NCBI RefSeq assembly: GCF_024199925.1
Contig: NZ_JANADR010000001.1
Location: 806,001 to 870,000 of the forward strand
Source of the DNA: Bradyrhizobium sp. CCGUVB1N3
GTDB taxonomy: Bacteria; Pseudomonadota; Alphaproteobacteria; Rhizobiales; Xanthobacteraceae
Reading direction: 5' to 3'
Length of the DNA: 64,000 bases
The notes beneath the pieces are model-generated. The model was not told the DNA's origin. It did no database searches and saw only the letters and a program-made list of their open reading frames with translations. The first letter of the stretch is position 1. Each line of letters begins with the position of its first letter. Positions 1 to 8,085 of the stretch are shown here, piece by piece. A program made the position numbers and the translations under genes.

Positions 1-267
1 CTCGCGCTCGACCCCGAGATGATGCTGCTGGACGAGCCGATGGCCGGTATGGGCCACGAGGACATCGACAAGATCGCGGCGCTGATCAAACGCATCTCCG
101 CGAAATATACCATCCTGATGGTCGAGCATAATTTGAGCGTCGTGGCCAATCTTTCCGACATCATTACCGTGTTGACGCGCGGGCAGGTGCTGGCGCAAGG
201 CCATTATAGCGAGCTCACCAAGGACGAGCGCGTCAAGGAAGCCTATCTGGGAGCCGGTCATGCCTGA
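1..267 (+). CDS. Branched-chain amino acid-type ABC transporter ATPase (LivG-like), 3' part
   Basis: This is the C-terminal 88 residues of an ABC ATPase; the reading frame is open to the window edge, so the 5' part lies upstream. A Walker B motif (MLLDEP) with the LivG-type extension MAGMGHED, and the H-loop in MVEHN, are present, followed by the usual short tail. It would energise uptake through the LivH/LivM channel encoded just downstream. Its stop codon overlaps the next ATPase by 8 bp, as expected for a translationally coupled livG-livF pair. The substrate cannot be read from sequence; branched-chain amino acids, amides or urea are all possible for this family. Confidence 0.9.
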   Translation, partial: LALDPEMMLLDEPMAGMGHEDIDKIAALIKRISAKYTILMVEHNLSVVANLSDIITVLTRGQVLAQGHYSELTKDERVKEAYLGAGHA

Positions 268-1009
268 CACTGCGATCGCCGAGGCAACGGCGAAGGCTGC
301 AACGACCGGTGGCAACATCCTCCAGGTGCGCAACCTCGAAGCCTGGTACGGCGAGTCCCACATCCTGCACGGGATCAATTTCGACGTGAATGCGGGCGAG
401 GTCGTCACGTTGCTGGGGCGCAACGGCGCCGGCAAGACGACCACCCTGAAGTCGATCATGGGCGTCATCGGCAAGCGCACCGGCTCGGTGCGGTTCAACA
501 ACCAGGACATCATCCGCGCGACCTCCGACAGGATCGCGCGCATGGGGGTCGCGTTCTGCCCCGAGGAGCGCGGCATCTTCGCGAGCCTCGACGTGCGCGA
601 GAACCTGATGCTGCCGCCGATCGTGCGGGCCGGGGGCCTGTCGCTCGACCAGATCTTCGAGCTGTTTCCGAACCTGAAGGAACGTCTGAGCAGCCAGGGG
701 ACAAAACTCTCCGGTGGCGAGCAGCAGATGCTGGCGATCGCGCGCATCCTGCGTACCGGCGCGAGCTTCCTGATGCTGGACGAGCCGACGGAAGGTCTTG
801 CGCCGGTCATCATCCAGCAGATCGGCCATACCATCGCGCGGCTGAAGAAGGAGGGTTTTACCATCCTGCTGGTCGAGCAGAACTTCCGCTTCGCTTCCAC
901 CGTCGCCGACCGCTATTATGTCGTCGAGCACGGCAAGATCATTGACGGATTCTCCAATGCGGAGCTTGCCGCCAATATGGACAAGCTCCACGCCTATCTC
1001 GGCGTCTAG
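260..1009 (+). CDS. Branched-chain amino acid-type ABC transporter ATPase (LivF-like)
   Basis: 249 residues, a complete HAAT-family ATPase. Walker A GRNGAGKTT lies at residues 53-61, the signature LSGGEQQ at 150-156 and Walker B LMLDEP at 171-176. The H-loop position carries Gln (LVEQN, about 205-209), which is usual in LivF rather than LivG. A poorly conserved N-terminal stretch of about 20 residues precedes the first beta strand. The start is the ATG that overlaps the end of the upstream ATPase gene. It should form a heterodimer with the LivG-like subunit on the cytoplasmic face of the LivHM permease. Confidence 0.93.
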   Translation: MPDTAIAEATAKAATTGGNILQVRNLEAWYGESHILHGINFDVNAGEVVTLLGRNGAGKTTTLKSIMGVIGKRTGSVRFNNQDIIRATSDRIARMGVAFCPEERGIFASLDVRENLMLPPIVRAGGLSLDQIFELFPNLKERLSSQGTKLSGGEQQMLAIARILRTGASFLMLDEPTEGLAPVIIQQIGHTIARLKKEGFTILLVEQNFRFASTVADRYYVVEHGKIIDGFSNAELAANMDKLHAYLGV

Positions 1010-1045
1010 AACTGCCAACGAGAAACTTCAAAAAAGGAAAGTTGC

Positions 1046-2269
1046 ATGAAGACCAGGTCGATTGCGTCATTTCTGCTCGGCACCGCGCTGTCGCTCACCG
1101 CGGTGGGCGCGGCTTGCGCACAGGACAAGACCGTCAAGATTGGCGCGCTGTCCGATCAGTCCGGCCTCTACGCCGATCTCGGTGGCCCCGGCTCGACGCT
1201 GGCGGCGCAGATGGCGGTTGAAGATTCCGGCCTCGCTGCCAAGGGCTGGAAGATCGACATCATCTCCGGCGATCACCAGAACAAGCCCGACATCGGCACC
1301 GCGATCGCGCGGCAATGGTTCGACGTCGACAAGGTCGACGTCATCGTCGACGTGCCGAATTCCGGCGTGGCGCTTGCCGTCAACAACGTCATCAAGGAGA
1401 AGAACGGCGTCTACATCAATTCGGGCGCTGCGACCTCCGATCTCACCAACGCGCAGTGCTCGCCCAACACCGTGCACTGGACCTACGACACCTACATGCT
1501 CGCCCACACCACGGGCCAAGCGCTGGTGAAGGCGGGCGGCGACACCTGGTTCTTCCTGACTGCCGACTACGCCTTCGGCGCGGCGCTCGAGCGCGACACC
1601 ACGGCGGTTGTGCTGGCCAATGGCGGCAAGGTCGTCGGCGGCGTCAAGCATCCGCTCAACACGCCGGACTTCTCCTCCTTCCTGCTCCAGGCGCAGTCGT
1701 CCAAGGCCAAGATCATCGGCCTTGCCAATGCCGGTGGCGACACCACCAATACGATCAAGCAGGCGGCCGAGTTCGGTATCACCAAGGGTGGCCAGAAGCT
1801 CGCGGCGCTGCTTCTGTTCCTCACCGACGTCAAGGCGATCGGGCTCGAGACAGCGCAGGGCCTCAACTTCACCGAGACCTTCTACTGGGACATGAACGAC
1901 CAGACCCGCGCGTTCTCAAAACGCTTTTCCGGGAAAATGAAGAATGGCGCGCCGCCGACCATGGTGCAGGCGGGCGTCTATGCGGGCCTGCGTCACTACT
2001 TCAAGGCGCTGGAAGCGCTCGGCGGTAATCCGCATGATGGCGTCAAGGTCGTCGAGAAGATGAAGTCGATGCCGACCGAGGACGATCTGTTCGGCAAGGG
2101 CGAGATCCAGCCGAACGGCCGCACCATCCACAACGCCTATCTGTTCGAGGTGAAGAAGCCCTCCGAATCCAAGGCGCCGTGGGACTTCTACAAGCTGGTC
2201 GGCACGGTGTCGGGCGATCAGGCCTTCACGCCGCTGTCCGAGAGCAAGTGCGCGCTACTGAAGAAGTAA
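1046..2269 (+). CDS. Periplasmic ligand-binding protein of Liv-type ABC transporter
   Basis: 407 residues with a Sec signal peptide: Lys/Arg near the N terminus, a hydrophobic core, and probable cleavage after AACA just before QDKTVKIG. The mature part is a type I periplasmic-binding fold of the LivK/Peripla_BP_6 group. It captures the ligand and delivers it to LivH/LivM. A purine-rich Shine-Dalgarno stretch (aaaggaaag) precedes the ATG. It lies inside the operon between the ATPases and permeases. A clear paralog lies at 14072-15298; shared blocks include GDHQNKPDIG and AGGDTWFFLTADYAFG. The ligand is not predictable from sequence. Confidence 0.92.
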   Translation: MKTRSIASFLLGTALSLTAVGAACAQDKTVKIGALSDQSGLYADLGGPGSTLAAQMAVEDSGLAAKGWKIDIISGDHQNKPDIGTAIARQWFDVDKVDVIVDVPNSGVALAVNNVIKEKNGVYINSGAATSDLTNAQCSPNTVHWTYDTYMLAHTTGQALVKAGGDTWFFLTADYAFGAALERDTTAVVLANGGKVVGGVKHPLNTPDFSSFLLQAQSSKAKIIGLANAGGDTTNTIKQAAEFGITKGGQKLAALLLFLTDVKAIGLETAQGLNFTETFYWDMNDQTRAFSKRFSGKMKNGAPPTMVQAGVYAGLRHYFKALEALGGNPHDGVKVVEKMKSMPTEDDLFGKGEIQPNGRTIHNAYLFEVKKPSESKAPWDFYKLVGTVSGDQAFTPLSESKCALLKK

Positions 2270-2280
2270 GAAGCAACAAC

Positions 2281-2306
2281 GGTTCGCCGGCCAACACCGG
2301 CGAACC
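2281..2306 (+). promoter_or_regulatory. Intra-operon stem-loop between binding protein and LivH genes
   Basis: A perfect 10-bp inverted repeat (GGTTCGCCGG / CCGGCGAACC) with a 6-nt loop sits 12 bp after the binding-protein stop codon. No T-run follows, so it is more likely a 3' stabiliser or partial transcription brake than a full terminator. Binding-protein mRNAs of ABC operons are often protected this way so that this protein exceeds the permease in amount. That role is inferred. Confidence 0.6.
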
Positions 2307-2342
2307 ACATGAGGAACGCTGAAGGGACTGGGTGCGGGATCG

Positions 2343-3212
2343 ATGCAGGCTCTCTATGCACAGCTACTGGTGGGACTGATCAACGGCTCGTTCTACGCGC
2401 TGCTCAGTCTCGGGCTTGCCGTGATCTTCGGCATGCTGAACATCATCAATTTCGCCCATGGCGCGCTCTACATGATGGGCGCGTTCGTCGCGTATTTCCT
2501 GCTCAACAACGACTACCTCAGCATCGGCTACTGGCCAGCGTTGATCATCGCGCCGATCGTGGTCGGCATCTTCGGCATGATCCTGGAGCGGACCATGCTG
2601 CAATGGCTGACCGGGCTCGATCATCTCTATGGCCTGCTGTTGACGTTCGGTATGGCCCTGATCATCCAGGGCGTGTTCCAGAACTATTTCGGCTCGTCCG
2701 GTCTGCCCTATGCCATTCCCGACCAGCTCAAGGGCGGCATGAATCTCGGCTTCATGTTCCTGCCCGTCTACCGCGGCTGGGTGGTCGTCTTCTCGCTGGT
2801 GGTGTGCCTTGCGACCTGGTTCCTGATCGAGAAGACCCAGCTCGGCGCCTATTTGCGCGCCGCGACCGAAAACCCGACGCTGGTGCGCGCCTTCGGCATC
2901 AACGTGCCGCGCATGATCACGCTGACATACGGCCTCGGCGTCGGCCTTGCCGCGCTGGCCGGCGTGCTCTCCGCGCCGATCAACCAGGTGCGGCCTCTGA
3001 TGGGTGCCGACCTCATCATCGTGGTGTTCGCGGTGGTGGTGATCGGCGGCATGGGATCAATCATGGGCTCGATCATCACCGGCTTCGCGCTCGGCGTGAT
3101 CGAAGGCCTGACCAAGTATTTTTACCCTGAGGCCTCCAACACCGTCGTGTTCGTGCTGATGGTGCTGGTGCTGCTCGTGAAGCCGACGGGACTGACGGGA
3201 AGGGCGGCCTGA
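2343..3212 (+). CDS. Branched-chain amino acid-type ABC permease (LivH-like)
   Basis: 289-residue polytopic inner-membrane protein of the LivH family. The N terminus MQALYAQLLVGLINGSFYALLSLGLAVIF is diagnostic in type, followed by a further conserved stretch (FAHGALYMMGAF). The cytoplasmic coupling region contains LRAATENPTLVRAFGI. Near the C terminus the glycine-rich VIGGMGSIMGSIITGFALG matches the family. It pairs with the LivM-like protein, whose gene starts 1 bp after this one stops. The start was chosen for the canonical LivH N terminus. Confidence 0.93.
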   Translation: MQALYAQLLVGLINGSFYALLSLGLAVIFGMLNIINFAHGALYMMGAFVAYFLLNNDYLSIGYWPALIIAPIVVGIFGMILERTMLQWLTGLDHLYGLLLTFGMALIIQGVFQNYFGSSGLPYAIPDQLKGGMNLGFMFLPVYRGWVVVFSLVVCLATWFLIEKTQLGAYLRAATENPTLVRAFGINVPRMITLTYGLGVGLAALAGVLSAPINQVRPLMGADLIIVVFAVVVIGGMGSIMGSIITGFALGVIEGLTKYFYPEASNTVVFVLMVLVLLVKPTGLTGRAA

Positions 3213-3213
3213 T

Positions 3214-4182
3214 ATGACAGCCTTGACAGAACAAACCCTTCCCGTGACATCGCGCGCGATGCGCGACGAGATGATCGTGTTCGTGTTCATGGCGCTGGCC
3301 CTGGCCGCCGTGCCGTTCACCGGAATCTACCCGTTCTTCGTGATGCAGGCGCTGTGCTTCGCGCTGCTCGCCTGCGCCTTCAACCTGCTGATCGGCTATG
3401 GCGGTCTCTTGTCGTTCGGCCACGCGATGTTCCTCGGCACCGCCGGCTATTGCAGCGCGCATGCGCTGAAGGTGTGGGCGCTGCCGCCGGAGCTCGGTAT
3501 TCTCGCCGGCGTTGCAGCGGCCTTCGTACTCTCGATCGTGACCGGTTACATCTCGATCCGCCGCCAGGGCATCTACTTCTCGATGATCACGCTGGCGCTG
3601 TCGCAGCTCCTCTATTTCATCTACTTGCAGGCACCGTTTACGCATGGCGAAGACGGCATTCAGGGCATTCCGCAGGGCCATCTGTTCGGGATCTTCGATC
3701 TCTCCAAGCCGACGGTGCTCTACTACGTCGTGCTGGTCGGCTTCCTCGCCGGCTTCCTGCTGATCTACCGCATCATCAACTCGCCGTTCGGCGAGGTCTT
3801 GAAGTCGATCCGCGAGAACGAGCAGCGTGCGATCTCGCTCGGCTACCGCACCGATCAGTACAAGCTTTTGGCCTTCATCCTCTCGGGCACGCTGGCGGGC
3901 TTTGCGGGCTCGCTGAAGGTGTTCGTGGCGCAGAACGCCTCGCTCACGGACGTGCACTGGTCGATGTCGGGTGAGGTCGTGCTGATGACGCTGGTTGGTG
4001 GTCTCGGCACCATTTTCGGGCCCGTGGTCGGCGCCTTCGTGATCATCGCCATGCAGCAGTACCTGGCGAGCTACGGCCAGTGGGTGACGGTGATTCAGGG
4101 CGCGATCTTCGTGATCTGCGTGCTCACCTTCCGCCGCGGCGTCGTCGGCGAAATCGCGCATTACTTCCGGAGATCTCTGTAA
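3214..4182 (+). CDS. Branched-chain amino acid-type ABC permease (LivM-like)
   Basis: 322 residues, the second membrane subunit. It shows the LivM motif LIGYGGLLSFGHAMFLG at about residues 65-82 and the ATPase-coupling segment SPFGEVLKSIRENEQRAISLGY at about 190-211. The C-terminal half contains LVGGLGTIFGPVVGAF. About eight to ten hydrophobic segments are visible. It is the last gene of this operon; a hairpin about 50 bp downstream may end the transcript. Confidence 0.93.
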   Translation: MTALTEQTLPVTSRAMRDEMIVFVFMALALAAVPFTGIYPFFVMQALCFALLACAFNLLIGYGGLLSFGHAMFLGTAGYCSAHALKVWALPPELGILAGVAAAFVLSIVTGYISIRRQGIYFSMITLALSQLLYFIYLQAPFTHGEDGIQGIPQGHLFGIFDLSKPTVLYYVVLVGFLAGFLLIYRIINSPFGEVLKSIRENEQRAISLGYRTDQYKLLAFILSGTLAGFAGSLKVFVAQNASLTDVHWSMSGEVVLMTLVGGLGTIFGPVVGAFVIIAMQQYLASYGQWVTVIQGAIFVICVLTFRRGVVGEIAHYFRRSL

Positions 4183-4997: not shown

Positions 4998-6002
4998 GTG
5001 GATGCCGTGTTAGGTCTTCCCGTCCTGGTCGGACTGATTGCGGTCGCGCTGCTGTTCGACTTCCTGAACGGCCTGCACGACGCCGCCAATTCGATCGCCA
5101 CCATCGTCTCGACCCGCGTGCTGCGGCCGCAATTCGCGGTGTTCTGGGCCGCATTCTTCAACTTCATCGCCTTCCTGGTATTTGGTCTGCACGTCGCCCA
5201 GACCATCGGCACCGGCATCATCGATCCCGCGGTCGTCGATGCGCAGGTGATTTTCGCGGCCCTCGTCGGCGCGATCGTCTGGAACATCGTCACCTGGGCG
5301 CTCGGCATTCCCTCCTCATCGTCGCACGCGTTGATCGGCGGGCTCGTCGGCGGCGGCATGGCTAAGGCGGGGCTCTCGGCGGCGGTCTGGGGCGGGCTGT
5401 CGAAGACCGTGCTGGCGATCGTGCTCTCGCCGCTGGTCGGCTTCCTGCTCGCGATGATGCTGGTTGCAATCGTCTCCTGGGCATCGGTGCGCTCGACGCC
5501 CTTTGCCGTCGATCGCGCCTTCCGCATCCTGCAATTCGCGTCAGCCTCGCTCTATTCGCTCGGCCATGGCGGCAACGACGCACAGAAGACCATGGGCATC
5601 ATCGCCGTGCTGCTCTTTTCGCAGGGGCAACTCGGCGGGGAATTTTACGTACCGTTCTGGGTGGTGCTGTCGTGCCAGGCGGCGATGGCGATGGGCACCT
5701 TGATGGGCGGCTGGCGGATCGTCCGCACCATGGGCCTGCGCATCACCAAGCTGACGCCGATGCAGGGGTTTTGTGCCGAGACCGGCGGTGCCGCGACCCT
5801 GTTCATGGCGACCTTCCTCGGCGTTCCCGTCTCGACCACCCACACTATCACCGGCGCGATCGTCGGTGTCGGCGCCGCTCGCCGCGTTTCGGCGGTGCGC
5901 TGGAACGTGGCGAGCTCGATCGTCTACGCCTGGGTGATCACGATACCGGCGTCCGCGATCGTCGCGGCGCTCTCCTGGTGGGCGGTGCAATTTTTCAGGT
6001 AA
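4998..6002 (+). CDS. pit: PiT family inorganic phosphate transporter
   Basis: 334 residues, GTG start. Both halves of the internal PiT duplication carry the family signature: [17 protein letters not shown] at about 24-40 and [13 protein letters not shown] at about 188-200. Around ten membrane segments are present. It is a low-affinity proton- or cation-coupled phosphate importer in the inner membrane. It is cotranscribed with the DUF47 gene upstream and its 3' end overlaps the convergent sugE gene by 8 bp. The length fits the shorter bacterial PiT group. Confidence 0.93.
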
Positions 6003-6309
6003 CGAGCTTCAGCCCGACGATACCGCCGATGATCAGCCCGATGCTGGCGAGGCGCAGTGCCGTGGCCGGCTCGCCGAACAGGATGATCCCCAGGGCTGCG
6101 GTGCCGACCGCGCCGATCCCGGTCCAGACCGCATAAGCGGTTCCAATCGGCAGCCACTTCAACGCCAATCCGAGCAGGATGACGCTGCCGGCCATGGCGG
6201 CGAGCGTGAGCACGGATGGAACGAGCCGCGAGAAACCCTCAGTGTATTTGAGGCCGATCGCCCAGCCGACCTCCAAAAGACCGGCGACGAACAGGATAGT
6301 CCAAGCCAT
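5995..6309 (-). CDS. sugE: Small multidrug resistance family guanidinium exporter SugE/Gdx
   Basis: 104 residues with four transmembrane helices. The essential membrane-embedded acidic residue is Glu13 in [16 protein letters not shown]; the Trp-Ala and Lys residues following it are those of the Gdx/SugE subgroup rather than EmrE. Gdx dimers export guanidinium against protons. The ATG at 6309 has a good Shine-Dalgarno (GGAGG, plus-strand 6316-6320). An upstream extension in the same frame would run through the riboswitch and is rejected. The two-hairpin guanidine-II riboswitch immediately upstream supports guanidinium as the physiological substrate. Confidence 0.93.
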
Positions 6310-6327
6310 GACGCCCCTCCGTTCAAG

Positions 6328-6378
6328 GCAGGGCCGTCCCCGCGACTGATCTGCGAATTGAAGGAAGGTCGTCCTTCC
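6328..6378 (-). promoter_or_regulatory. Guanidine-II (mini-ykkC) riboswitch controlling sugE
   Basis: On the minus strand two hairpins follow each other. The first, GGAAGG-ACGA-CCTTCC (6378-6363), has a perfect 6-bp stem. After a 19-nt linker comes GCGGGG-ACGG-CCCTGC (6343-6328), a 6-bp stem with one G-U pair. Tandem hairpins with ACGR tetraloops are the definition of the mini-ykkC/guanidine-II class, in which the two loops kiss when guanidinium binds. The second hairpin ends 7 nt before the GGAGG Shine-Dalgarno of sugE, pointing to translational control. Both the motif and the downstream gene fit the known class. Confidence 0.9.
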
Positions 6379-6465
6379 CAGCATGGATATGGGGCTGGCC
6401 GAGGCGCCCCGCAATCACCAAATGACCCTTGATTAGGCCCGTTTTCCCTGCCAAACGCTCCCGCC

Positions 6466-8085
<1,620 letters not shown>

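Follow-up and report, generated by a model that had tools for sequence, protein, structure and literature searches.

Background

Does the leader of sugE in Bradyrhizobium sp. CCGUVB1N3 contain a genuine guanidine riboswitch, and if so, by which base pairing would it control the gene? The window considered here (the whole stretch of 64,000 nucleotides that was analysed) carries on its minus strand two tandem hairpins with ACGR loops, 6378-6363 and 6343-6328, followed by GGAGG and the ATG of sugE; this order is read directly from the sequence. The original prediction took the hairpins for a Guanidine-II (mini-ykkC) riboswitch in front of a SugE/Gdx-type exporter, assumed control at the level of translation, and added that the genome manages free guanidine. 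We followed up each of these points at the bioinformatics level, and we propose a specific alternative pairing of the ribosome site, referred to below as the OFF helix.

Results

The covariance model search suggested together with the original prediction was run, and it bears out the mini-ykkC class: RF01068 (Guanidine-II) matches positions 6380-6329 of the minus strand with 34.7 bits against a gathering score of 32, over model positions 1-48, i.e., over the full length of the model. Searching the whole window gives an E-value of 0.0032, searching an 801-base stretch one of 3.9e-5, and this match is the only one in the window that reaches the gathering score. At E <= 0.001, a single RF01068 match was found in the 10.44 Mb genome, with 150 of the 2260 first-look candidates scored. 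The features of the locus are listed in Table 1; from the sequence, P1 can be extended by an additional G-U pair (6379/6362).

Table 1. Features of the sugE locus in window coordinates
Feature	Position	Strand	Basis
Release factor 3 gene, divergent from sugE	6466-8085		
Promoter-like TTGCGG-17-CATATC	6386..6414	(-)	Conservation in genus leaders
P1 hairpin, loop ACGA (6372-6369)	6363..6378	(-)	Sequence, RF01068 match, covariation
P1-P2 linker, 19 nt	6344..6362	(-)	Sequence; mean pairwise identity 60.3%, 76 genus leaders
P2 hairpin, loop ACGG (6337-6334)	6328..6343	(-)	Sequence, RF01068 match; paired in 76/76 leaders
Probable OFF helix, 5' side: last G of the P2 5' arm, P2 loop, P2 3' arm, next C	6327..6338	(-)	Minimum-energy folds, pair counts
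Shine-Dalgarno GGAGG	6316..6320	(-)	Sequence; predicted unpaired probability 0.037
Probable OFF helix, 3' side: Shine-Dalgarno and spacer	6310..6320	(-)	Minimum-energy folds, pair counts
sugE/gdx, 104 aa SMR exporter	5995..6309	(-)	PF00893, SugE equivalog, structure match
Phosphate-transporter gene, convergent with sugE	4998-6002		

Covariation was counted over 76 distinct leaders, two duplicates among the 78 genus leaders being left out. Five of the seven P1 pairs are changed on both sides, which is equalled by 5 of 500 shuffles, and there are 27 double-changed cells versus 9.3 in the shuffles. Five of the six P2 pairs never vary; being almost invariant, P2 carries no covariation information. 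Thus, the covariation to be expected of Guanidine-II stems is observed for P1, and P2 is uninformative in this respect.

The gene behind the element belongs to the expected family. Its product scores 95.8 bits with PF00893 (cut-off 23.7) and 144.2 with the NCBIfam SugE equivalog (cut-off 126), which supports a gene of the SugE/Gdx type and places the element directly before a guanidine export gene; at E <= 0.001, the genome contains no other PF00893 match. The best solved chain is 6wk5_B, which we take to be Gdx-Clo, with 110.5 bits; EmrE follows with 41.4, so the protein is closer to the former. Five Gdx-Clo residues dealt with in the part of PMC9574504 available to us (E13, W16, S42, Y59 and W62) are found at the same numbers in the window protein, and no difference from the Gdx (SugE) subtype was noticed. 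The family tests support a Gdx-type SMR exporter, with guanidinium/proton antiport as its putative activity. Its ATG is at 6309-6307 and its stop codon ends at 5995. The frame remains open upstream across the whole riboswitch up to a TTG at 6414 (139 codons, window 5995-6414, minus strand); the family matches begin at the ATG 6309. At their 3' ends, sugE and the phosphate-transporter gene that converges on it share 8 bases (5995-6002).

Upstream of P1, CATAT is present in 76 of the 78 genus leaders, and the exact TTGCGG in 41; in 67 of the 78, CATAT lies 6-8 nt from P1. If this putative promoter is used, the transcript would begin approximately with the first base of P1. A scan for the sigma-70 consensus found no promoter. 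No terminator-like site was found by a simple scan of 5900-6520, which fits translational control.

Within the genus, RF01068 at E <= 0.001 is found in at least 79 of 117 genomes, at 90 places including that of the window; the filters were strict, so 79 is a lower bound. Leaders before close sugE relatives were taken from 21 of the 38 unmatched genomes; 8 of these 21 reach the gathering score when small sets are scanned, and the remaining 13 stay below it with hairpins visible nonetheless. A sugE gene follows the element at 78 of the 90 places (100% identity in the window, 75-94% at the other 77), and both neighbours are conserved at >= 85% identity in 74 of the 78 sugE loci. Forty additional leaders were also considered. 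Close sugE relatives follow 28 of them (L310-L337), of which 20 carry at least two ACGRCC boxes and 8 carry one; one of these relatives (L328) has a stop at codon 3 of sugE with both boxes present. Another 11 precede distant SMR genes (52-72% identity) and show no ACGRCC box within 130 bases, and L348 has two boxes before a truncated sugE match. At the level of the phylum, RF01068 is found in 84 of 398 genomes, 9 of them from the genus. A pattern scan of genome contigs for two GGACGRCC boxes was not used: the matches listed span many unrelated high-GC genomes, and we presume that most are due to chance.

At the other 12 of the 90 places, two tandem frames stand instead of sugE. In L004, the sole such locus scanned, they match UAAP1 (287.2, cut-off 205.95) and UAAP2 (326.6, cut-off 284.7), the urea amidolyase associated proteins, which are presumably part of the guanidine carboxylase route. 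The leaders before the tandem frames form a second Guanidine-II type (L002, L003, L004, L006, L011-L014, L018, L019, L029, L058); their linker often carries AAGGAGCAU, which is similar to the later Shine-Dalgarno.

We now turn to the pairing of the ribosome site. The second hairpin ends 7 nt before the Shine-Dalgarno, and this distance, which holds as read from the sequence, was the sole argument given originally for translational control. We observe that nine P2 bases, GACGACCCU (the last base of the 5' arm, the loop and the 3' arm), are complementary in most leaders to AGGGUCGUC or a close variant of it, a stretch that begins with the Shine-Dalgarno and reaches the start codon. Aligned without gaps, the best complementarity of this 9-mer is 9/9 in 49, 8/9 in 20 and 7/9 in 9 of the 78 leaders, that of the window being 8/9, with one mismatch. 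In the OFF helix as proposed for the window, 6320-6310 would pair with 6338-6330 and 6328-6327, leaving one G-G mismatch (6334/6314). Together with the lack of a terminator-like site reported above, the complementarity of the Shine-Dalgarno and spacer to the P2 loop and 3' arm gives translational control an indirect support.

Folding agrees with this arrangement. In the minimum-energy fold of the window, P1 is kept and the loop and 3' arm of P2 are taken up by pairing with the Shine-Dalgarno; an equally good fold is reached by 7 of 200 shuffles (13 of 200 for a shorter piece), i.e., the energy is only mildly better than that of shuffled sequence. Over the 78 genus leaders, the median predicted probability of an unpaired Shine-Dalgarno is 0.02; it exceeds 0.1 in 17 leaders and 0.2 in 8, with a maximum of 0.44. 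The Shine-Dalgarno pairs with the P2 region (probability above 0.5) in 64 of the 78 leaders and is not mainly paired with P2 in the other 14.

Conservation points in the same direction. The spacer shows 78.0% identity; the linker, with 60.3%, and the gap between P2 and the Shine-Dalgarno, with 55.1%, are less conserved. Over the 76 leaders, 96.5% of the OFF-helix cells are paired versus 20.1-65.5% when the partner is slid. One pair varies and yet stays paired (G-C in 46, G-U in 27); no OFF-helix pair is changed on both sides in the 76 leaders, and no covariation measure rises above its shuffles. Since P2 is invariant, covariation is unable to prove this helix.

Several controls bear on how specific the pairing is. 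When 19 other start regions of the window (taken from 47 mechanically chosen ORFs, some of which are perhaps not genes) are placed behind the window aptamer, the median unpaired probability is 0.62 versus 0.037 for the native leader, and 1 of the 19 is as low. Of 300 spacers of 5 random nucleotides, 39 keep the Shine-Dalgarno hidden to the same degree as the native one, and 6 do away with P2 as completely. Start regions of sugE from outside the genus, placed behind the genus aptamers, raise the mean openness from 0.06 to 0.28 (78 leaders).

Outside the genus, 55 sugE leaders were available from 88 loci (L220-L307), the other 33 loci having no sugE match; for folding, the set was reduced to 52 by dropping L269, L279 and L295, in which no Shine-Dalgarno is recognisable (the start being misplaced in L269 and L279). 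The mean longest run between loop and start region is 3.78 versus 3.26 in shuffles (55 leaders, kinship uncorrected). Pairing of the Shine-Dalgarno with P2 is 0.38 in native versus 0.24 in swapped leaders (52 leaders, kinship uncorrected), and openness is unchanged (0.28 versus 0.27, 52 leaders). The P2 3' arm is the commonest predicted partner there (27 of 52), which is partly expected, as it is a C-rich arm beside the Shine-Dalgarno. Because the effect is weak outside the genus, the OFF helix is claimed for the genus only.

We have also considered that a Guanidine-II riboswitch may act here through another platform, in which the Shine-Dalgarno would be masked by one of three other partners: the P1 3' arm, the linker, or a P0 helix involving the 5' flank. 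For two of these there are proposals from other species, at least in the parts of the papers seen: P0 in Pseudomonas aeruginosa (PMC9561414) and the linker as anti-SD in E. coli (PMC9094411). When 25 nt of the 5' flank are added, 56 of the 78 genus leaders prefer the P2 3' arm as partner, 15 prefer the P1 3' arm, 5 upstream sequence and 2 the linker; P1 bears the same loop, as in L005. The leader of the window is nevertheless predicted to keep P1 folded (0.97) and to pair the Shine-Dalgarno with the P2 region (0.96), and we regard another platform as unlikely here.

That the element is a decayed one, its hairpins persisting after the guanidine response was lost in this organism, seems to us very improbable: the P1 loop or a loop-adjacent pair is changed in 8 and the P2 loop in 2 of 105 classified genus leaders, and the window score is close to the cut-off (34.7 versus 32), whereas the window's own loops, ACGA and ACGG, both fit ACGR, and both stems and the loop-closing G-C pairs are intact.

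The classification leaves out one of 106 leaders (L336), whose P2 falls outside the pattern of the script; the script also misplaced P1 in L322, L323 and L332, where the loop has a changed pair beside it. In five leaders before sugE (L310, L315, L333, L335, L337), the P1 loop departs from ACGR, and P2 is kept and is still complementary to the region of the Shine-Dalgarno (9/9 in three, 7/9 in two).

Discussion

The locus holds a genuine and ordinary Guanidine-II riboswitch before a Gdx-type exporter, and guanidine very probably switches the exporter on. The OFF helix is the probable expression platform; we base this on complementarity and on its conservation in the genus, covariation giving no argument for it.

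The mechanism we have in mind is as follows. The loop and 3' arm of P2 can pair with the Shine-Dalgarno and spacer, and hence hiding of the ribosome site and formation of the guanidine-binding loop are mutually exclusive. Without guanidine, 6320-6310 would pair with 6338-6327, which would mask the ribosome site and dissolve P2, P1 remaining folded. Guanidinium would stabilise P1 and P2 as two ACGR hairpins kissing via their loops, and the Shine-Dalgarno, deprived of its partner, would be freed; SugE/Gdx would then be made and guanidinium expelled. Binding, kissing, switching and transport are predicted here from what is known of the families. In our opinion, a translational ON switch of this kind, acting on a guanidinium exporter via the OFF helix, is quite likely. 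The modelled ON state lies a median of 10.2 kcal/mol above the minimum, which is large for a switch, in a model that includes neither the ligand, nor kissing, nor co-transcriptional folding.

A more general idea can be put forward tentatively, since we lean slightly towards doubting it. The Shine-Dalgarno and spacer of the genus may serve as an "anti-aptamer", complementary to P2 in its ACGR loop and 3' arm (in some leaders equally to P1), so that hiding and kissing would compete for the same loop bases with no separate anti-Shine-Dalgarno. The near-invariance of P2 would then result from this double duty, and leaders with a decayed P1 loop that keep P2 and the complementarity would be either single-hairpin or permanently closed versions.

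Mutual exclusion of P2 and a stem covering the ribosome site has already been suggested for Guanidine-II: according to the passages seen of Huang et al. (PMC5486947), a stem in Gloeobacter violaceus overlaps P2 and the ribosome site and excludes the folded riboswitch, and we propose the like for the window. The elements of Gloeobacter violaceus, Pseudomonas aeruginosa and E. coli share with that of the window two ACGR hairpins, a short linker, a sugE gene behind and a P2 near the ribosome site. The latter two differ in the proposed partner, as far as the parts of the papers seen go: in Pseudomonas aeruginosa a P0 helix would be formed by the flanks (PMC9561414), and in E. coli the linker would be the anti-SD (PMC9094411), whereas in the window the loop and 3' arm of P2 are predicted to take this role, and the pairing extends over the spacer as far as the start codon. 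A survey, in its accessible part, reports RF01068 in Mesorhizobium huakuii. Among the titles and abstract beginnings retrieved for guanidine riboswitches or mini-ykkC with Bradyrhizobium, nothing concerns this leader. What is new here is the specific OFF helix for the genus, which is probable, supported by conservation, and not proven.

The suggestion that the genome manages free guanidine holds in part. A sensor and an exporter are present; no assimilation family (TIGR03424, TIGR02712) gives a genome match above its cut-off, and of the 289 Guanidine-I candidates in the genome 150 were scored, none of them matching at E <= 0.001. The one TIGR03424 match, with 48.2 bits against 284.7, is a DUF1989 protein beside a beta-lactamase-family protein, and we rejected it as a guanidine-assimilation gene; this pair (L350:11667-14838, minus strand, of the same genome) has weak UAAP1/UAAP2 matches only. 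For TIGR02712 (urea carboxylase), there are 29 partial matches below the cut-off in the genome; all 14 control genomes also have matches, one of them over the cut-off. At three places of contig C1 (about 76.0-81.4, 219.8-223.1 and 3220.9-3224.0 kb), a biotin-carboxylase-like frame adjoins frames that match other parts of TIGR02712, all below the cut-off. Split carboxylase-like sets are usual for 5-oxoprolinase-type genes. The genome is likely to be "export only" for guanidine, which the split frames at these three places keep from being proven. Elsewhere in the window (19-4182, plus strand) lies an ABC transporter set of the branched-chain/urea type, the three scanned proteins of which are all below the Urt cut-offs.

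Conclusions

Expression platforms of this class have been put forward for one species at a time (PMC5486947, PMC9561414, PMC9094411, as far as these were seen); the OFF helix would provide a concrete one. Guanidine producers include plants and some bacteria, as stated in a portion of a review (PMC12186494). The exporter of this large genome would be under the control of a guanidine sensor; given that the assimilation families have no match above cut-off, guanidine may act there as a stress and not serve as food.
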